DNA from: Chloroflexota bacterium
Lineage (GTDB): Bacteria; Chloroflexota; Anaerolineae; Promineifilales; Promineifilaceae
Direction of reading: 5' to 3'
DNA length: 8,250 nucleotides
Assembly (NCBI GenBank): GCA_020353135.1
Contig: CP070688.1
Span: 2,666,690 to 2,674,939, forward strand
Below, piece by piece: positions 199 through 8,250 of this stretch. Below the pieces are notes generated by a model that was given only the letters and a program-made list of their open reading frames with translations, had not been told where the DNA came from and did no database searches. Position numbers and translations under genes: made by a program. Within the stretch, counting starts at the first letter, position 1. Each line of letters opens with the position of its first letter.

Positions 199-854
199 GC
201 TCGCCAAGAATTCAAGTTCTGGTAGCCGAAGATTCCAAGGCCTTCCGCGATGGGTTGCGAGTTCTGTTGAAGGCGACGTCCGATATGACCCTGGTGGGTG
301 AATCGATCAACGGGCTTGAGGCTGTCAATCAGGCCAAACGCATCCAACCAGATGTGATCCTCATGGATTTACACATGCCTGATCTAAACGGCATAGAAGC
401 GACCCGGCGAATCCTGCTCACCAGCCCCCACATCGCCATTCTCGTCCTGACCATGTATGACGACGATGAATCCGTCTTCGCCGCCATGCGAGCCGGCGCG
501 CGCGGTTACTTGCTCAAAGGCGCGCTGAAGAATGAGATTCAACGGGCGATTCGCGGCGTCGCCGCCGGCGAAGCCATCTTCGGCCCGGCCGTGGCCCAAC
601 GTATGGCGGCTTATTTCGCACAGATGCCGCCGGCGGCGGCCAGTGCTTTTCCCGAGCTGACGGAACGTGAACAGGAGATCTTGCAGCTCATCGCCCAGCA
701 CCAAACGAACCAGGAGATTGCCCAAAAACTCCAGATCAGTCCCAAGACGGTCCGCAATCACGTCTCAAATATTTTCGCCAAGCTGCAGGTCGCCGGCCGG
801 GCCGAGGCGATCGCCCGGGCCCGTGACGCCGGACTGGGACGAGACGCCGCGTAG
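195..854 (+). CDS. NarL/FixJ-family response regulator (REC + LuxR-type HTH)
   Basis: This 219-residue protein has the standard length and layout of a NarL-family transcription regulator. The receiver domain spans about residues 5-122, with acidic pair E12-D13, phospho-acceptor D58 in DVILMDLHMP, switch T86 and conserved K108 in GYLLKG. A short Ala/Pro-rich linker (about 143-153) leads to a LuxR-type four-helix DNA-binding domain at about 154-215, recognisable by LTEREQEILQLIA and the recognition-helix region SPKTVRNHVSNIFAKL. Phosphorylation by the upstream kinase should promote dimerisation and DNA binding. The start is the ATG overlapping the kinase stop. The ribosome-binding site before it is weak (TGGA), which fits reinitiation after the kinase. 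Its target genes are unknown. The minus-strand operon converges on it rather than sharing a promoter, so regulation of that operon by this protein is possible but not shown. Confidence 0.96.
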   Translation: MSSPRIQVLVAEDSKAFRDGLRVLLKATSDMTLVGESINGLEAVNQAKRIQPDVILMDLHMPDLNGIEATRRILLTSPHIAILVLTMYDDDESVFAAMRAGARGYLLKGALKNEIQRAIRGVAAGEAIFGPAVAQRMAAYFAQMPPAAASAFPELTEREQEILQLIAQHQTNQEIAQKLQISPKTVRNHVSNIFAKLQVAGRAEAIARARDAGLGRDAA

Positions 855-886
855 ACAGGCACCCCCAACATACAGCCGCGTCTCGT
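839..886. terminator. Inverted repeat between convergent genes, candidate terminator
   Basis: A perfect 9-bp inverted repeat pairs ACGAGACGC (839-847) with GCGTCTCGT (878-886). The roughly 30-nt loop contains the response regulator's stop codon. It sits at the meeting point of the + strand regulator gene and the - strand glycosyltransferase gene, where a terminator serving one or both directions would be expected. On the + strand a weak T-rich stretch (TATTTCTTCC) follows about 10 nt after the stem. On the - strand no T tract follows. The long loop and poor T run make this a weak intrinsic terminator, and it could be a chance repeat. The rest of the 59-bp gap (855-913) shows nothing else. Confidence 0.4.
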
Positions 887-913
887 GGCGGAGTGTATTT
901 CTTCCTACTCCAG

Positions 914-2053
914 TTATAAGCCGGCGCGCTGCAATAAGTAAGCCAAAACGACGTCGGAATTAAAGCGCTCTTCCGCCAGCTTTCTCGCCGCCTGGCAGTG
1001 GACCAGGTAATCGCCGTTGATAGCCACGATGCCGGCGACGGCCTCCTCAAGCGTCGCGAATGTGAGCAATCCTTCACCGGTCGGAACATAGGGTTCGATT
1101 CCGGTGGATTGGACCAGGGCAGGTTTGCCGGATGCCAAGTAGCAGGCGGTCCGATCGCTGATCCAGCCGGCGTTTGCCCTCACATACCCGCCCTTTGCGA
1201 CGCTAAATTCCGCCCTTGAAGATTGAATAAATTCACGGTAACTGTGAGGATCGCCAGCATGCAAAAATGGATCCAGAATACGCCAGTCATTGCGGTGCAG
1301 AAGCCCGATTTCCTCGTGGTCGATCTGATAAATAGTCAGGGCCGGTTCCAGGCGTTGATTGGCTCGGAGAGGGAGCTGGACAAAACGTAAGAACTCATCC
1401 CGCTTGCCGCCATAATACTCGCCCTCGTAGCTGGCTCGCTGATCGCCCCACCAGTCGCCAACTGTGGAAAAGCGCTCGTTTTGCTCGTCAATACAGGCCG
1501 GCCACTGATCCAAAAACACCGGCGGCAAGATCGGGTGCCATTCGAAGCCCAGTGCCGGCATCGCGCTTTCCGGGCGGCCGATCGTTTGGCCTACGGTGAA
1601 GAAGATATTGAACTGATCCAGACCCATGTCCAACTGCTCCGCCCAAATCTGGGTGAAGCCGGGATCGACGTCGATGTAAGCCCGCCGCTCGATCTGCTTC
1701 AGGGGGGATCCATTTGGAATGCCCTTGCCACTAATGCCGATCAACAGATCGGTTCGGGCCGCTAGCTCCTGGAGTGTATTTTCTGACATGCCGTAATAGC
1801 GGCGACCGCCCTCGAAAACGACACAGGCTCGTTCCGAGAATTCGAAATCCCGGGCCGTGCCGACGAAGCGTTTCACCAGGTATTCCAGGCTGTGAACTTG
1901 TTTTTGAGGGTCCGGCCGGTCTAAATAATCGATCCAGTAGGCGTCGACACCCAACTTCAATAAGCCCAGTAGATACTGCATCGGCACCCAGGTAGAGCCG
2001 GCAAAATCCGGCCAGCTGGACCACATTTGCGTGAGGATGATGACCCTAGTCAC
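914..2053 (-). CDS. GT-B fold glycosyltransferase, CgeB-like
   Basis: This is a 379-residue protein if read from the GTG at 2053. The N-terminus (TRVIILTQMW, then FAGSTWVPMQYLLGLLKLG at about 18-35) looks like the first Rossmann-type domain of a GT-B glycosyltransferase. Residues about 280-345 (EFSVAKGGYVRANAGWISDR, then CYLASGKPALVQ, then a GLLTF segment and an acidic helix) match the nucleotide-sugar binding half seen in CgeB-like and Glyco_trans_1_2 proteins. The likely reaction is sugar transfer from a nucleotide donor to an unknown acceptor. No signal peptide or membrane helix is seen, so it should act in the cytoplasm. GTG is preferred to the in-frame ATG at 2128 because an AGGAGG lies 11 nt before it, the overlap with the upstream kinase gene shrinks to 8 nt, and the extra N-terminal residues are unlike the family. 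It is the last gene of the minus-strand run. Confidence 0.75.
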   Translation of the reverse strand: MTRVIILTQMWSSWPDFAGSTWVPMQYLLGLLKLGVDAYWIDYLDRPDPQKQVHSLEYLVKRFVGTARDFEFSERACVVFEGGRRYYGMSENTLQELAARTDLLIGISGKGIPNGSPLKQIERRAYIDVDPGFTQIWAEQLDMGLDQFNIFFTVGQTIGRPESAMPALGFEWHPILPPVFLDQWPACIDEQNERFSTVGDWWGDQRASYEGEYYGGKRDEFLRFVQLPLRANQRLEPALTIYQIDHEEIGLLHRNDWRILDPFLHAGDPHSYREFIQSSRAEFSVAKGGYVRANAGWISDRTACYLASGKPALVQSTGIEPYVPTGEGLLTFATLEEAVAGIVAINGDYLVHCQAARKLAEERFNSDVVLAYLLQRAGL

Positions 2054-3128
2054 CGCCGTCGTCGCCTCCTGGTGGCTGGCCGGAATCTTCTGATAGCACC
2101 GGTCGCAAAGCATTGAACCATGTTTCAATTTCGCTCAAAGCGTCGAATCCCCAGGAGGTATCGCCGTCGAGAATGGCTAGCGCTGGCCAGATCAGACGAT
2201 TGGTGATGCGCGATAATTCAGCCGTTTCGAATAGCTGATTCCATAGCGAGACAGACAGCCGCGGCCAGCCCAGGTCCGCCACGGCATCAAGGTAGCTATC
2301 GACTATCCAGCTTCGCTCTCCTTCTGGGAAACGCAGTAGAAAGGTAGATAGATCGTAACTGACCGGGCCAACAGCAGCATGATCCCAGTCGATGAAGCGC
2401 ACGATCGGCTCCACTTTCGCCTGCAAGACGAAGACGTTGCTGATCCATAAATCGCCATGCAACAGCGTTTCAGAACCACCAGCCCTCTGAAGCAGCTCGG
2501 CGCGCTGCGGCCTGGTCGCCTCCAACTGGTCGAGTCGCTCTAGCAGGCGTTCTCTCAACGCGCGATGCTCAGGTTTCAGGACGACGGCCGGGGTCCGGAT
2601 GGCCTCGATGCAGCGCTGAGCGTCGCGCACATTGCTCGCGTAAAAGGGCATGCCCAACTCCCCGCCCCAGAGCCGAACTTCGGCCAGCAAGGGATGCTCG
2701 GCAAAACGCTTGTGCAGTCGAGCGATGGACTCGACGGCCTTCTGCACGCTGCTCCTTCGGCCCTTTTGCGATTCCAGCGTTCGGCCACCCAAGTCTTCGA
2801 GCGCCAACCAGGTCGCTTGACCATCCGCTTCAGGCGCCATACCCAATAGCCGGGGCGCGCTGCCGGCCATGCCCCCAGCCGGTAGCCAACGCTGTACGAC
2901 CAGCCGGTTTCGCTGGGCGACGTCAGGATCGAGCCGTTTCACCACCATAGCGCGCGACTGCTTGCCAATTTGATAATGTAACCGGTACACATGCGCTTTG
3001 AGCTTTTCCACTTTAACGAGCTGCCCGCCGCCTTGCTCCGAGTCAATAAGGCGCCCTAGCAGATCGCGCAATGCCGGCGCCTCCAGCCCTTTGTCATCGC
3101 CTGTGAATCGTTCGAGATCTGCGATCAT
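2046..3128 (-). CDS. APH-fold phosphotransferase, third kinase of the operon
   Basis: This 360-residue protein belongs to the aminoglycoside phosphotransferase/choline kinase superfamily (APH, PF01636 type). Residue K64 in AMVVKR is the likely ATP-contacting lysine. The hinge is WLALEDLGG (about 107-115). The Brenner motif HGDLWISN (224-231) supplies catalytic D226 and N231, and D247 in FIDWDHAAVGPVSYDL is the metal-binding aspartate. All core residues are present, so it should be an active ATP-dependent kinase of a small hydroxylated molecule such as a sugar, amino alcohol or glycoside; the substrate cannot be read from sequence. ATG 3128 is the first start after an in-frame TGA and has only a weak ribosome-binding site. 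Its HGDLW/DWD motif version differs from the HGxFR/DWE version of the two kinases upstream, so it is the most divergent of the three. It overlaps the glycosyltransferase gene by 8 nt. Confidence 0.88.
   Translation of the reverse strand: MIADLERFTGDDKGLEAPALRDLLGRLIDSEQGGGQLVKVEKLKAHVYRLHYQIGKQSRAMVVKRLDPDVAQRNRLVVQRWLPAGGMAGSAPRLLGMAPEADGQATWLALEDLGGRTLESQKGRRSSVQKAVESIARLHKRFAEHPLLAEVRLWGGELGMPFYASNVRDAQRCIEAIRTPAVVLKPEHRALRERLLERLDQLEATRPQRAELLQRAGGSETLLHGDLWISNVFVLQAKVEPIVRFIDWDHAAVGPVSYDLSTFLLRFPEGERSWIVDSYLDAVADLGWPRLSVSLWNQLFETAELSRITNRLIWPALAILDGDTSWGFDALSEIETWFNALRPVLSEDSGQPPGGDDGGD
2065..2070 (-). promoter_or_regulatory. Ribosome-binding site that fixes the GTG start at 2053
   Basis: On the minus strand this is a perfect AGGAGG, placed 11 nt before GTG (2053-2051) and inside the last codons of the upstream kinase gene. 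It is the strongest Shine-Dalgarno match seen before any gene here and decides the start in favour of GTG over the ATG at 2128. The kinase's Gly/Asp-rich last residues (PPGGDDGGD) are encoded by this same stretch. Confidence 0.7.
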
Positions 3129-3196
3129 GAGTCTATTTCATGGTCGATAGCGCGGCCCGTTTGAGTGCGCGGCGCTGGTCCAGAATTACACGCTGT
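3129..3196 (-). other. 68-nt intergenic gap inside the operon
   Basis: This is the longest gap between genes of the minus-strand run. I see no convincing -35/-10 pair, no clear hairpin with a T tract, and no strong ribosome-binding site for the kinase gene that follows. A tiny ATG-AAA-TAG reading lies just before that gene's ATG, in another frame. An internal promoter cannot be excluded. Confidence 0.4.
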
Positions 3197-4174
3197 TTAA
3201 CAAGACCAGTAGCCGGCGCGAATGGCCACCGCCAGGTTCTTTTCGTAGGTGTCAAGCAAACTCACGGCCTTCGCCGTCGAATCATAAGGCAGGCTCATGC
3301 TAGCCCAGGCAACGGCTGCCAGCCGGCGGAACAGATACCCGATGACAACCATGCGCTCTAGCTGTGGTTTATCCATGTTGGGCCAGGCGGCGGCTACGAT
3401 TTGCCGGTAAATCTCCAGGTTTATCAAGCTGCCGGCGTATCTGTCCCGCGATGGCGCCAGGTCGGGGGCCGGCACGCCCCATCCAGCCATCTCCCAATCT
3501 AGCGGGTAGATGACGCTCCCTCCGGCTTCCTGGCGTACGAAAACATTCTTCGGCCGGAAGTCGCCGTGAACAAGCGTGCAAGGGATTTCCTCGCAAGCTG
3601 CCGCGACCCGGTCCCAGCACGCGGCGATCTCGTCTAGCCGCTTCGCCGCCGCCAACAATACAGTTCGATCCTCCTCGCTCAGCACCGGATTTCCTAGATT
3701 ATCCAGGATGTTTTTCCGTCCTGAGTCAAGATGGTTGAAATAATGACCCGGACCACGATCTGCCAGTCCGGCCGGCTTGACGACTGCGGCATTGGCGTGA
3801 AGTCGCCCCAACCAGGTCGAGACGGCGGCTTGCTGCTCGGGATCGCTGTGATCGATGCGCTGGTCGCCGATGTCTTCGAGAAATAGCCAGCACAACTGTT
3901 CGTCATCTCGGGCGTAACCGTAGTATCGAGGCGCCGACACAGGAAGTTGCGGTAGGATCTGTCGGTACAAGAAGTCCTCGACCCGCCCGGTGGAAAGATA
4001 GCATCTCTTGGCGATGACCGGCCGGCCAACAGTGCCGACCCCGTGCAACCTGAACACGGACCGCCTGCGGGTTGCTCCTTTCAGGGGTTCAACGTGGGAG
4101 GGCGCCAGGCCTTCACCGTTGAATCGCATCCAGGCTGAAACCGCCGGGTGCTGCATAACTTCTAGACAACTCAT
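3197..4174 (-). CDS. APH-fold phosphotransferase, second kinase of the operon
   Basis: This 325-residue kinase-like protein is of the APH superfamily. Visible elements are lysine K56 in PVIAKR, the hinge WLFLEDIGDQR (about 96-106), the catalytic motif HGDFRPKN (203-210, with D205 and N210), and metal ligand D226 in YPLDWEMAGWG. Every core residue is present, so catalysis is expected. The HGDFRPKN/DWE pair is nearly the same as the HGSFRPQN/DWE pair of the kinase just upstream, which suggests these two share a closer ancestor and arose by tandem duplication, although the rest has diverged strongly. The ATG at 4174 follows the upstream stop by 19 nt, with GGAG 11 nt before it. A gap of 68 nt follows before the next kinase gene. 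The substrate is unknown. Nothing singles out aminoglycosides, so a resistance role should not be assumed. Confidence 0.88.
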   Translation of the reverse strand: MSCLEVMQHPAVSAWMRFNGEGLAPSHVEPLKGATRRRSVFRLHGVGTVGRPVIAKRCYLSTGRVEDFLYRQILPQLPVSAPRYYGYARDDEQLCWLFLEDIGDQRIDHSDPEQQAAVSTWLGRLHANAAVVKPAGLADRGPGHYFNHLDSGRKNILDNLGNPVLSEEDRTVLLAAAKRLDEIAACWDRVAAACEEIPCTLVHGDFRPKNVFVRQEAGGSVIYPLDWEMAGWGVPAPDLAPSRDRYAGSLINLEIYRQIVAAAWPNMDKPQLERMVVIGYLFRRLAAVAWASMSLPYDSTAKAVSLLDTYEKNLAVAIRAGYWSC

Positions 4175-4185
4175 GTATCAACCAT

Positions 4186-4189
4186 CTCC
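4186..4189 (-). promoter_or_regulatory. Ribosome-binding site of the second kinase gene
   Basis: GGAG on the minus strand lies in the 19-nt space between the stop of the first kinase gene and the ATG at 4174, with an 11-nt spacer. It supports ATG 4174 as the start. Confidence 0.55.
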
Positions 4190-4193
4190 ATCG

Positions 4194-5213
4194 TTATGGT
4201 GTGATGGTCCCGTCGAAAAGCTCATCTTTGACTTTTTCTGCCATGCCCAGCAATTTGAACACCGTCTCTTCGGAGAAATTGAAGCTGGCCGAGTCGCCCA
4301 ATGATTTGATGGTTTTGTGCAAGCGGAAACAGTTGACGATGAATAGCAGTTCCTCTTCTTCTGGAACATGTACGCCATTGCGCGTGGCTTGTTGGCGATA
4401 GGCGCCTGTCATCTGCTGCAGCTTTGGTGGTCGAAAACCATCCAAAATGAATGCCAGATCGTACAAGGGCGCACCATAGGCGGCCAGTTCCCAGTCGATT
4501 GGACAGATCCTATTCGGTGACTGCACCAGGATGTTCTGCGGACGAAATGATCCGTGAACCAGCGTTCGCGGTTGCCTTACCATTACCTCGATCACCCGAT
4601 CATAATCCCGCAGAATAGCCTCCAGGCGGCCGGCACATTCCGGCTTGAAGTAGGCCATCGACGCCCGGGCTAGCGTGGCTTTCGATTGGAAAAAGGTCGC
4701 TTCGTGCTGCATCAAGTAATTGTAGCTGGCGAGGCGATTTGCTGACGGCAAGTAATATCCATGCAAACGGCCGAGCCAGGCGGCTGCCTTGATCCAATCT
4801 TCCAATCCGAGCGATCGTAGCTCTACGGCCTCAAGGTACTCGATCAACAACCAATACCGTTCCTGCTCCGGATCCCAAATTTCGCCGAAGTAACCGGCCG
4901 TATCCAGCGCTGCACTATCAAGTAGCTCCTGGTAGACGCGGACTTCCCGCCTACGTCGCGCGGGCAGATCATCTTTTGGAAGCCGGGAAGTGGCAAAGTC
5001 TTTCAAGTAGATCTTCTTGCTATTCCCTGAGTCAAATTGCACGGTCAAAAGCCAGGCCGGGAAGGAGGTCGATTCGTTGAAGGGCTCACACTTGAGTCCG
5101 GCGATCTTCGCCATGGACGAAGACCGGGCGGAAGCGCGGTCTTTCTTATCGAGAACCAGATGTTCGCCCAGGATTGTCCTCAAGGCATCGGTGCCTGGTA
5201 GATCAGTTGTCAT
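4194..5213 (-). CDS. APH-fold protein lacking the catalytic Asp, first kinase of the operon
   Basis: This 339-residue protein has the APH superfamily layout: likely ATP lysine K71 in IYLKDF, hinge WLLIEYL (121-127), Brenner-loop HGSFRPQN (220-227), metal-ligand D240 in CPIDWELAAYG, then the helical C-terminal lobe. The striking point is S222 where the family has its catalytic aspartate (HGD); the codon is TCA at 4550-4548, at least two base changes from an Asp codon. H220, N227 and D240 are kept, so ATP binding may survive while phosphotransfer is doubtful. It may act as a pseudokinase, a regulator or binding partner of the neighbouring kinases, or a kinase using another base. The frame is intact and full length, so this is not a decayed gene. 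ATG 5213 overlaps the exporter stop as ATGA and has AGGAAG six nt before it, which implies coupled translation with the exporter. Confidence 0.85.
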   Translation of the reverse strand: MTTDLPGTDALRTILGEHLVLDKKDRASARSSSMAKIAGLKCEPFNESTSFPAWLLTVQFDSGNSKKIYLKDFATSRLPKDDLPARRRREVRVYQELLDSAALDTAGYFGEIWDPEQERYWLLIEYLEAVELRSLGLEDWIKAAAWLGRLHGYYLPSANRLASYNYLMQHEATFFQSKATLARASMAYFKPECAGRLEAILRDYDRVIEVMVRQPRTLVHGSFRPQNILVQSPNRICPIDWELAAYGAPLYDLAFILDGFRPPKLQQMTGAYRQQATRNGVHVPEEEELLFIVNCFRLHKTIKSLGDSASFNFSEETVFKLLGMAEKVKDELFDGTITP

Positions 5214-7369
5214 TTTTGACTTCCTGACTTCACAGAGGCAACCGGATTGTTAACCTGATCTTCAGCTTGCCCGGCCGGATCACCATTGCTTGTGGTTGGA
5301 AGCAGCGTCCCATCATTATGCGCGCCAGGCGTGCGCCGCAGCACCTCTTCCAGCCCGCCCTGTCGATACCAGGCGACCCAGCGTTGCAGCGTGCGGTAAC
5401 CAACGCTCACACTCTCGCTCGCCGTGGCTATAGTCTCCCCGCTTCGCAGCAGGTAGAAGGCTTCCAACCGCTTTTGCATGTGAGGCCCGGATGCCATACG
5501 AAATCGATCCTCCAACTCTTCGAGACTCTCATGCCACTCGATTTTCAATGGACGGCCCTTTCGAATCTGACCGTTTCTCTCTGTCCCTTCGCTAGCCTGG
5601 CGGCCTACGGTCGAAAGCGTAATGGCTTCTGGTACGTCGGATCGAACATCAACCAGCCGCCCATCCTGGATGACCATCAACAAGTCACAATACGTGAGAG
5701 TTGACAGGCGATGGGCTATCAAGAAAGTCGTACGGCCTTTCATGAGCCGTACCATGGCCCTGATGATGCCGCTTTCGGTCTTGACGTCGACCGAGCTGGT
5801 CGGTTCATCCAGGATCAGGATGGGCGCGTCCTTCAAAAAGGCACGAGCCAAGGCGATGCGTTGCCGTTCGCCTCCGGAAAGTAGCATACCCCGCTCGCCG
5901 ACTTGTGTGTCGTAGCCATCTGGAAGCTTGATGATGAAATCATGGGCGTTGGCGGCCTTGGCGGCCTGAAAGATCTCTTCTTCCGTGGCTTCGGACCGGG
6001 CGTAAGCGATATTCTCGGCGATAGTGGTTGAGAAGAGCACCGTGTCCTGCAAGACGATGGCGAACTGATTGCGCAGGTCGATCAGCTTATACTCTCGAAG
6101 ATCGACCCCATCTAGCGTTATCTGTCCTTCTTGTGGATCATAAAAACGAGTCAACAGACCCATCACGGTGGATTTGCCGGCGCCTGTTTCGCCGGCAATA
6201 CCGATGCGCTTGCCGGCCGGCACTGAGAAAGTGATGTCGCGCAAAACATCTTTGCTGCCGTCATAGCTGAAGGAAACGCTCTGGAAACTCACGCCACCGT
6301 TGGCTCGGGCGATGGCACGGCCGTCGACCGGATCGGGCACTCCTGAAGGGATATCCTCGAGGGCAAAAGCACGCTCGGCGCTGGCCAGGTGGGGTTGCAG
6401 ACTGGCTGTCTTGCGGCTCACGGTTTTTAGGGGACCGTAAAGCTGCGCCAGGTAGCCCATAATCAACAACAGTTGTCCCAGGGTGATAATGCCAATGAAC
6501 ACGTGACGAACGCCCAGGTAGAGCACGATGGCGGTGCCAAGCGCTATTGTCATCGCCAGCAAAAGGCCTACCGTCCCTTCTGATAGTGTGTAGCGCAGGC
6601 GAGCACCCATGCCCATGCTAGATTGTTGTTCGAATCTCTGCTGCTCGCGATCTTCCTGTCCGAAGGCCATGACGACCCGCAAGGAGGCTAGCACTTCCTG
6701 TACCACGGAGAGGGCCGAACTCTCGACCCGCCTTACCTGGCGCGATTGCTGGCGAAGTCGGCGCCGGTACAGGCGGGCAATGAAGAATAAGATTGGTGAG
6801 ATGAGCAGGGCGACCAGCGCCAGTTGCCAATCGAGCCTGAACATCACAATCAACATGGCCGCGAGCGTGACTGTCGCCGAGACAAAGGGGGTGACGCCGT
6901 CGATGGCTAGGTAACGAATGGCGGCCGAGTCATATTGGATGCGGTAAATAGAGTCGGCCGTACCCTGGACGTCATGATAGGAGAGAGATAATCGTTGCAG
7001 GTGGCGGAAAAGGTCGGCCCGGAAGTGGAGTACTAGCTTTTCGCCGGTATAGGCGCGAAGAAGATTACTGCTCAGGGTTTGGAGTTGGGTTAAGAGAGCA
7101 ATCAGCAACACGAGCAGGGTGGCGAGAATCAGTAGTGCCTCTTTTGAGTCGGTGATCGTCGAAGGAAGCAAGACGTAGGCAAAATCGGGTAGCGGCTCCG
7201 AACCAATAACAGAATCGACGGCGATGGTCAAGGGTAAGGGGGTGAGAAGGGCCAGCGGAGCAGCCAGTAATCCAAGCAGAAAGATGGCCGCGATGTGTGC
7301 CCAGTACGGTCGCGTCTGGCGTATGACGCGCCCCATAATCTCAAGATCGCCGTAACGTTTATGCTCCAT
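5210..7369 (-). CDS. ABCB/MsbA-type ABC exporter with C-terminal HTH extension
   Basis: This 719-residue half-transporter should work as a homodimer in the inner membrane, exporting a substrate by ATP hydrolysis. The membrane domain (about 15-320) holds six likely helices near 25-50, 78-96, 155-176, 180-200, 265-290 and 293-312. The nucleotide-binding domain (about 358-572) is complete: Walker A GETGAGKST (K399), Q-loop Q441, signature LSGGERQ (497-503), Walker B ILILDEP (E522), D-loop SSVD and switch H553. The usual ending of such proteins (GTHxEL and a last helix) is missing after about residue 574. A linker and a homeodomain-like HTH (about 610-680) follow, with a polar 39-residue tail. 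The family norm is near 580-620 residues, so about 120 are extra. The ATG at 7369 overlaps the upstream glycosyltransferase stop as TAATG and lacks a clear ribosome-binding site; M12 is an alternative start. The substrate is probably a glycosylated lipid or metabolite, inferred from neighbours. Confidence 0.95.
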   Translation of the reverse strand: MEHKRYGDLEIMGRVIRQTRPYWAHIAAIFLLGLLAAPLALLTPLPLTIAVDSVIGSEPLPDFAYVLLPSTITDSKEALLILATLLVLLIALLTQLQTLSSNLLRAYTGEKLVLHFRADLFRHLQRLSLSYHDVQGTADSIYRIQYDSAAIRYLAIDGVTPFVSATVTLAAMLIVMFRLDWQLALVALLISPILFFIARLYRRRLRQQSRQVRRVESSALSVVQEVLASLRVVMAFGQEDREQQRFEQQSSMGMGARLRYTLSEGTVGLLLAMTIALGTAIVLYLGVRHVFIGIITLGQLLLIMGYLAQLYGPLKTVSRKTASLQPHLASAERAFALEDIPSGVPDPVDGRAIARANGGVSFQSVSFSYDGSKDVLRDITFSVPAGKRIGIAGETGAGKSTVMGLLTRFYDPQEGQITLDGVDLREYKLIDLRNQFAIVLQDTVLFSTTIAENIAYARSEATEEEIFQAAKAANAHDFIIKLPDGYDTQVGERGMLLSGGERQRIALARAFLKDAPILILDEPTSSVDVKTESGIIRAMVRLMKGRTTFLIAHRLSTLTYCDLLMVIQDGRLVDVRSDVPEAITLSTVGRQASEGTERNGQIRKGRPLKIEWHESLEELEDRFRMASGPHMQKRLEAFYLLRSGETIATASESVSVGYRTLQRWVAWYRQGGLEEVLRRTPGAHNDGTLLPTTSNGDPAGQAEDQVNNPVASVKSGSQK
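5220..5225 (-). promoter_or_regulatory. Ribosome-binding site inside the exporter's last codons
   Basis: AGGAAG on the minus strand sits 6 nt before the ATG at 5213 of the first kinase gene. It lies within the final codons of the exporter gene, next to the ATGA stop/start overlap. This ties the production of the kinase-like protein to translation of the exporter's C-terminal tail. Confidence 0.6.
5330..5542 (-). other. IS630-type HTH domain fused to the exporter C-terminus
   Basis: Exporter residues about 610-680 start with IEWHESLEELEDRF, continue with a helix ending in FYLLRSGE, then TIATASESVSVGYRTLQRW and VAWYRQGGLEEVLRR. This order of helices, with YRTLQRWVAWYRQGG as the recognition helix and wing-side turn, matches the N-terminal DNA-binding half of IS630-family transposases and the homeodomain-like HTH families related to it (HTH_23, HTH_29, HTH_32 type). 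No DDE catalytic domain follows, only a polar tail ending at the stop. The domain is in frame with an intact nucleotide-binding domain. The match is from memory of family consensus sequences, not from a search. Confidence 0.75.
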
Positions 7370-8250
7370 TAGAAGGGATCGTTTCGTATCTGTTCAATGG
7401 CGCGGAGGCTGGCATCCATGGCGGCCGCACAGTCTCCAACCGCCCGCATAAACAGGGCCGCAGCCAGCAAGCCCAAAAGGACGGACACAGGCCAGGCGCC
7501 TTGCATGGCGGACAGCAACGTTAGCACGGCCAATAAGCTCACTACAATCAGTACAATCGTCGCTAGTTTCGGCCACAGCCGGTAACGAATCATCTGCCTG
7601 CCCAAATCGTGATTCTCGCTAGCCATCAAGATTCGCAGCCCGCCCAGCAGTCCGCCGCGAATTTCCAGATCCCATCGGTCGAACTGACCACCTCGCAGAA
7701 TGACCGCGCCGCGCTCGTGGTAGATGGATTCCAATCGCTCTAACCGGGCTTCCGGCGCCTGGTACTTCTCACGCCACATGGACAGGCTGCGCGGACGGGG
7801 AAGGGCGTAATTGGACAGTCCCCGTCTGCGCCAGGGTGTTAGGCCAGCCGCCAGGCGGCCCGCTAGTCGCGCCAGCGGCTGCAAGAGGTGTAATAGAGCC
7901 ACAAGTGCGTGAAGCGCCGGGCGTTTCCATCCACCTGTCTGATATGCCGGGAACGTAGCTTTCCATCCGCGAATCACGGCATAGACGATTGGCGGTCCGG
8001 CCGCCACGATCAGCAACGGCAAAGCCAACAGCAAGGGCGCCCATAGAAGACCCATCAGCGTGAGTGATCCTAGCAGGACGATGACAAGGAACCATTCAGG
8101 CGCTAACATGAACGAGCCGAAGGTGCCTGGCCCGGTTTCGTAAATGGACTGGAAGAATCGACTTCCCCAGACACCATAGTATACGTGCCAGCGCTTGAAC
8201 AGCCGGGTGTTCTCCAGGCCGGTACCATATAGCCTGCCATGCCAATGAAG
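7369..8250 (-). CDS. Family-2 glycosyltransferase, membrane C-terminal part (partial)
   Basis: The frame stays open to the right edge, so the ATG at 8109 is an internal methionine and the gene starts outside the window; 293 codons plus the TAA are visible. The visible part opens with HWHGRLYGTGLENTRLF and RWHVYYGVW, followed by two hydrophobic helices (about 52-95), a weaker one (about 113-137), LTPWRRRG, RWDLEIRGG and DLGRQMIRYRLWPK, then two more hydrophobic segments (about 228-270). I recall this pattern from the C-terminal part of long, membrane-bound GT2 proteins that lie beside ABC exporters. The catalytic GT-A domain with its DXD motif would be upstream and is not seen, so the activity call rests on this resemblance and on context. 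It probably adds sugar to a lipid-linked or membrane acceptor. The stop overlaps the exporter's ATG (TAATG). Confidence 0.65.
   Translation of the reverse strand, partial: LHWHGRLYGTGLENTRLFKRWHVYYGVWGSRFFQSIYETGPGTFGSFMLAPEWFLVIVLLGSLTLMGLLWAPLLLALPLLIVAAGPPIVYAVIRGWKATFPAYQTGGWKRPALHALVALLHLLQPLARLAGRLAAGLTPWRRRGLSNYALPRPRSLSMWREKYQAPEARLERLESIYHERGAVILRGGQFDRWDLEIRGGLLGGLRILMASENHDLGRQMIRYRLWPKLATIVLIVVSLLAVLTLLSAMQGAWPVSVLLGLLAAALFMRAVGDCAAAMDASLRAIEQIRNDPF

Follow-up and report, generated by a model that had tools for sequence, protein, structure and literature searches.

Why the gene of an ABC exporter should run on, in the same reading frame, into a helix-turn-helix (HTH) domain of transposase type is the question raised by a locus of a Chloroflexota bacterium (GCA_020353135.1, contig CP070688.1). 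The window, meaning the whole stretch of DNA that was analysed, comprises 8,250 nucleotides. Judged by sequence comparison, the exporter and an HTH of transposase origin are truly fused, and the fusion is conserved, in one clade among the 120 relatives listed, and probably serves a cellular function. The components are familiar, as are the two kinds of event, and the titles and abstract openings of the open-access literature surveyed mention no ABC exporter with a DNA-binding domain joined to it. Host and transposase domains stand here in one frame and have been kept over several lineages, as in other host-transposase fusions, and since the literature surveyed on such fusions, at that same depth, is eukaryotic, the present one would add a bacterial case.

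An exporter and a helix-turn-helix in one reading frame

The fusion gene lies on the minus strand at 5213..7369 (stop codon at 5210-5212) and encodes 719 amino acids; its delimitation rests on the open reading frame, the domains and eight homologues of the same architecture. The transmembrane domain (PF00664, residues 28-314, 6428..7288, minus strand, Pfam E 1.4e-37) is followed by the nucleotide-binding domain (NBD; PF00005, residues 376-525, 5795..6244, minus strand, E 5.8e-33), the strands of which extend to about residue 576 in the secondary structure predicted by AlphaFold2. PF13384 (HTH_23) then matches residues 632-674 at 1.5e-7, scoring 31.5 bits where the cut-off is 24.6, when the full 719-residue protein is scanned with Pfam. 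The preliminary description had read the NBD as continuing in one frame into an HTH tail, a reading that was to fall if the tail matched no HTH; the single frame with its three domains agrees with it, and the tail, when searched, gave the HTH_23 match. Scanned alone, the 166-residue C-terminal piece matched HTH_23 at 5.9e-8 and the IS630 model NF033545 at 3.4e-6 (26.7 bits, cut-off 100), over model positions 2-52 of 299.

The order of ABC_membrane and then ABC_tran within one chain is that of the ABCB-type exporters. The score against TIGR02203 (MsbA) was 427.9 bits, below the equivalog cut-off of 602, and by this comparison the exporter is MsbA-like and not MsbA itself. The cyanophycin-associated ABC transporter (NF052233) was ruled out at 409.1 bits against a curated cut-off of 880. 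ABCB exporters of the MsbA kind are half-transporters that form homodimers, and the C-terminus of their NBD is cytoplasmic. Predicted transmembrane segments and a domain of DNA-binding type in one polypeptide would also give the protein the layout of a membrane-tethered one-component regulator. Searched by sequence, the solved structures returned a single irrelevant match (E 0.61).

The exporter's last helix had been described as missing. This found no support, at moderate confidence, since AlphaFold2 places a helix at residues 579-593, after the last NBD strand, with moderate to low confidence (block means 83, 67 and 33). Because of this helix, and of a similar, SDV...-like C-terminal stretch in most of the tail-less relatives inspected, the join seems to be placed after a complete exporter. 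The predicted helix and a hypervariable linker, delimited by its low identity, together make up residues 577-602 (5564..5641, minus strand); the linker measures 28-46 residues across the nine fused proteins, and pLDDT falls below 50 at residues 589-605. The full-chain model is weak in other places too, with a mean pLDDT of 70 and values below 50 in the NBD stretches 442-461 and 469-499. Next comes a conserved region resembling ORF A of IS630 elements (residues 603-682, 5324..5563, minus strand), recognized by domain matches, conservation and predicted structure, with predicted helices at 616-625, 629-642, 647-654, 658-671 and 673-678. From the helix order of HTH domains, residues 658-671 (YRTLQRWVAWYRQG; 5357..5398, minus strand) are assigned as the putative recognition helix. 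The protein ends in a variable extension (residues 683-719, 5213..5323, minus strand) with pLDDT below 50.

The neighbouring genes are on the minus strand as well. Upstream lies a gene that runs off the window, with its C-terminal part included (7369..8250); this part matches the corresponding end of a GT2-like gene found beside tail-less exporters. The piece has no Pfam match, and GT2 is our reading of those neighbouring genes and not a library match. The stop codon of the upstream gene and the start of the exporter share one base (TAATG). Downstream, the stop of the fusion gene (TGA) and the ATG of the next gene overlap as ATGA (5210..5213), which the preliminary description had pointed out and which is present at 5213-5210 in the ORF coordinates and sequence. 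That next gene is the first of three encoding kinases of the APH fold (4194..5213, PF01636 4.9e-18), the others lying at 3197..4174 (3.6e-15) and 2046..3128 (1e-15).

Relatives with and without the tail

The same architecture of NBD and HTH, which the preliminary description had proposed to look for elsewhere, was found in P0002-P0009. A whole-protein search scored 7,995 candidates, of which 7,934 passed, and nine of the 120 relatives listed combine ABC domains with HTH_23, namely these eight and the protein of the window itself, which is listed with a 4.46-Mb contig, so that at least nine such fusions exist. Where they align, the eight share 61-69% identity with the protein of the window, and one fused protein of 723 amino acids has two member sequences on four contigs from three sources. 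A protein search with the tail region, which requires shared 5-residue words, matched only the window's protein and P0002.

The remaining 111 of the 120 listed relatives are MsbA-like exporters without an HTH. They end 34-62 residues (median 49) past the AHR of the H-loop, whereas 151-168 residues follow it in the nine fused proteins. Tail-less exporters of about 600 amino acids in groups of GT2-like, ABC and APH-like genes are up to 68% identical to the fusion protein in the transmembrane domain and NBD. Orthologues ending near residue 600, with the HTH in a separate gene, had been named as evidence that would speak against the fusion; most relatives do end there, but the loci read held no second HTH gene, and there is a fused clade of nine. 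Six tail-less relatives are recorded with an organism; one belongs to the Pyrinomonadaceae and five to the Chloroflexota, three of the latter being Anaerolineae or Anaerolineales.

In a maximum-likelihood tree of the exporter part, with the tail excluded, the fused proteins form one clade (support 96/91) that is present in 96% of 200 bootstrap trees; this tree contains the nine fused proteins and 28 of the 111 tail-less ones, hand-picked for spread over the list. In a quick tree of all 120, one change suffices (support 91). Since the nine group as one clade, a single ancestral fusion is the best fit and the simplest account, although the tree alone cannot separate gain from loss.

Conservation within the nine is uneven. 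Mean pairwise identity is 70% in the transmembrane domain and 72% in the NBD, drops to 22.5% at residues 573-602, rises to 56% at 603-682 (59% in the HTH core) and falls to 24.4% at 683-719, and 18 of 84 tail columns are invariant. Such a conserved island between drifted stretches resembles a working domain on a linker, and at the protein level it suggests that the HTH was retained by selection while the linker drifted. In the predicted recognition helix, seven positions (R659, T660, R663, W664, W667, Y668 and R669) have the same residue in all nine. In 34 tail-like proteins without an exporter, which were gathered with a profile of the tails and are thus biased towards likeness, R663 is an arginine in 68% and the other six residues are kept in 88-100%.

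The other occurrences of the tail that were read or listed in the genomes sampled lie in short frames. A scan of genome contigs with a tail pattern matched 11 stretches and gave seven confirmed loci, with HTH frames of 87-232 amino acids, none of them fused. Searches with a tail profile had matches in 5 of 5 genomes of known loci and in 7 of 400, 2 of 29, 0 of 7, 7 of 158 and 0 of 177 genomes; these samples overlap, in the set of 400 no more than 13 candidates were scored for each genome, the two empty results came without a positive control, and the counts give no prevalence. Every place listed was in an open frame of 93-237 amino acids, far below exporter length.

Source of the tail

The relatives of the tail lead to transposases. 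A profile of the nine tails, used in a search that sees only lengths 0.55-1.75 times that of the query, matched 38 short proteins of 71-147 amino acids, several of which carry the name transposase or helix-turn-helix protein in their source records. Typical stand-alone ORFs begin with M-x-GRPL-x-I-x-W, near the start of the homology with the fused tails, and have the same HTH up to an RTPG-like motif, past which the longer ones carry a second HTH. Three of these proteins scored 60.8, 67.2 and 91.6 bits against the IS630 model, below its cut-off of 100, as proteins of half length would. In two loci (L025 and, by reading of the sequence alone, L027) a tail-like ORF is followed by an apparent second transposase ORF in another frame. 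A plasmid search with the tail returned five records, in none of which 80% query coverage was reached. In one of them, plasmid pMtWR-220 of Meiothermus taiwanensis, a gene with 49% identity across the match is followed by an annotated transposase gene, and the record has five matching places; in Chroococcidiopsis plasmid pCHRO.01, a 34% match overlaps a 1077-nt gene annotated as an IS630 family transposase. A viral scan found one relative among 19 stretches, an HTH ORF resembling a two-ORF IS630 element, without a fusion.

Given the stand-alone kin, the two-ORF loci and the plasmid matches, the best reading of the tail is as the first HTH of such an IS630 transposase, a region common to the one-ORF form (pCHRO.01) and the two-ORF form (pMtWR-220, L025, L027) from the start of ORF A to the RTPG-like motif. 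The earlier proposal that an HTH of IS630 type was captured from a transposase lineage and kept is thereby strengthened by the HTH_23 score above cut-off, the stand-alone kin and the conservation in nine proteins. Unlike IS630 transposases, the fused tail lacks the second HTH and the DDE domain and gives no sign of mobility. Pfam found no second HTH (HTH_32/33) in the window's protein, and all nine fused tails end about 40 residues or less past the first. No DDE family matched the fusion protein, and a crude C-terminal DDE motif, found in L016 and L025 and in no other IS630-like loci, was absent from the six frames of the window; neither scan revealed a DDE-bearing transposase fragment in the window.

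In a tree of the tails, the fused group falls together with P0121 (support 53/83) and the position of the P0007 tail is uncertain; the alignment is too short for the tree to name a donor lineage. An inverted-repeat search over window positions 5000-6000 gave one 13-nt pair, 85% complementary, within the gene at 5323-5335 and 5590-5602, which may have arisen by chance. One could speculate that the linker derives from the left end of an insertion sequence that has since decayed.

Possible roles of the tail and its neighbours

We infer that the HTH was gained once and is now a working domain. The reading we prefer, with a probability of about 0.5 on the sequence evidence, is that the DNA-binding domain of a transposase was exapted, that the exporter keeps it at the membrane and that it most likely still binds DNA at a few sites. 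A half-transporter dimer with a cytoplasmic NBD C-terminus would have two HTHs per pump at the membrane, presented on flexible linkers with the chromosome within reach. They might bind a few DNA sites, perhaps including the promoter of their own operon, and the amount of exporter in the membrane would then feed back on expression. A DNA target of this kind, such autoregulation and a possible influence of ATP or substrate belong to the conditional part of the proposal. DNA binding is favoured since the predicted recognition helix has been kept. An 80-residue domain makes the question directly accessible to experiment.

In two cited systems, transporters or membrane proteins directly govern transcription, as is proposed for the fusion: MalK controls gene expression by keeping MalT at the membrane (PMC10427625), and CadC, a membrane-tethered one-component regulator, is under the control of the transporter LysP (PMC5936718). 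Unlike the fusion, CadC is not a transporter and MalK works on a separate regulator. As far as these sources go, both are systems of two proteins, and an exporter with a built-in DNA-binding domain would unite the two in one chain.

The main rival, which we hold to be possible but rather unlikely, is that the HTH has been re-used as a protein-binding platform that recruits a cytoplasmic partner, for example a co-encoded APH-fold kinase or a regulator, and that DNA binding has been lost. The closest analogue calls for caution on DNA binding: in Caenorhabditis, F-box (A2) genes captured an HTH of Tc1/Mariner origin, from the IS630-Tc1-mariner group, and selection has kept it, and for the encoded proteins DNA binding was not detected, more protein partners were found and protein binding was proposed (PMC12062965). 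That case concerns a eukaryotic multi-gene family, as described there, and the present one a bacterial membrane transporter. The control that the ABC ATPase MalK exerts over gene expression through MalT also fits a platform, as does the flexible linker, and the exporter frame that enters APH-like sequence in one sampled relative (L023) indicates that an exporter C-terminus can carry a partner. Against this, the fused tails conserve the residues of the predicted recognition helix at least as well as transposase-like relatives do, which is unexpected if DNA contacts had been dropped.

It is more doubtful that the exporter is a transcription factor gated by its transport state, in which ATP-driven closure of the NBDs would pair the HTHs on a palindromic site so that export sets the expression of its own operon. 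A half-transporter with a cytoplasmic C-terminal HTH would suit such a device, and membrane-tethered regulators such as CadC, with LysP controlling it, provide a precedent. However, the variation of the linker in sequence and length and its low pLDDT argue against tight mechanical coupling, and simple tethering is therefore likelier than tight coupling to the ATP cycle.

There is little to recommend a non-functional passenger, that is, an insertion sequence at the 3' end of the gene whose ORF A was added by read-through and tolerated. The start of the tail homology at about the start of the stand-alone ORFs (M-x-GRPL) is as expected for such an event, but a passenger should have drifted as far as the linker and the C-terminal extension did (22-24% identity), and the HTH keeps 56-59% with its invariant columns. 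An assembly or gene-calling error that joins two genes, to which only P0121 lends itself as a separate ORF (141 amino acids, on an 877-bp contig) with a tail of the fused type, is rejected because eight other, distinct proteins, one of them listed with four contigs and three sources, have the same architecture, and the claim that the fusion is established stands.

The surrounding gene group does not depend on the tail, as tail-less relatives have the same GT2-ABC-APH group. A whole-exporter search of 400 genomes, with two candidates scored in each, gave seven close exporters, and these came from six genomes. Five of them stop 0-40 residues past the match, one (L023) continues without a stop through APH-like sequence, and for the last (L022) the locus breaks off too early to show whether there is a tail. 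A GT2-like gene lies upstream in all seven loci. APH-like sequence lies downstream in five; L022 stops at the exporter, and L024 has instead a relative (31% identical) of the window's gene at 914..2128 (minus strand), which has no Pfam match and may be glycosyltransferase-like. In L021, one open frame spans the GT2-like and exporter sequences, and these other fusions of neighbours in L021 and L023 hint that the GT2-ABC-APH products work together.

Genes around the exporter

The neighbourhood of the exporter in the window holds three APH-fold kinase genes in tandem (2046-5213), which lie in one apparent operon. Convergent with the exporter operon, on the plus strand, is a gene for a LuxR-type response regulator (195-854). 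Two of the sampled genomes carry an exporter relative that lies in one open frame with a neighbour. At locus L023, the exporter (1492-3240, minus strand) shares its frame with an APH-like kinase sequence (535-1461, minus strand), and at locus L021, the exporter (1507-3207, minus strand) shares its frame with a GT2-like protein (3424-4107, minus strand). These shared frames are either natural fusions or the result of lost stops, and in either case, they hint that the products of the joined genes act together.

Stand-alone genes resembling the fused tail

Three loci, L001 (7998-8462), L002 (5457-5921), and L003 (around 8001-8237), carry a stand-alone gene of the IS630 ORF A type with two HTHs, and a search of these genomes with the tail profile gave one match per genome. 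A crude motif scan found no second transposase ORF at these loci. The two-HTH gene is followed at L001 by a gene whose product has an M14 peptidase domain and at L003 by an ORF resembling that peptidase gene. The stand-alone two-HTH genes at these three loci have possibly been domesticated.

Nearly identical stand-alone HTH genes occupy the same genomic place in two Chitinophagales MAGs (L004, 3686-4138; L005, 7998-8450), flanked by what we take, by eye from the sequence, to be folC-like and exbD/tonB-like genes. No transposase motif was found close to this HTH gene in a crude scan.

Atypical homologues

The fused homologue P0009 lacks eight residues directly after the LSGG of the ABC signature (alignment A1, columns 531-538), reflecting either a natural deletion or an assembly fault. 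The tail-less relative P0034 reaches 721 amino acids, its surplus length being a repeated NBD segment. P0121, a separate 141-amino-acid ORF on an 877-bp contig, has an end that resembles the fused tails and lacks the second HTH; it is either a fused gene broken by a frameshift or an independent tail gene.
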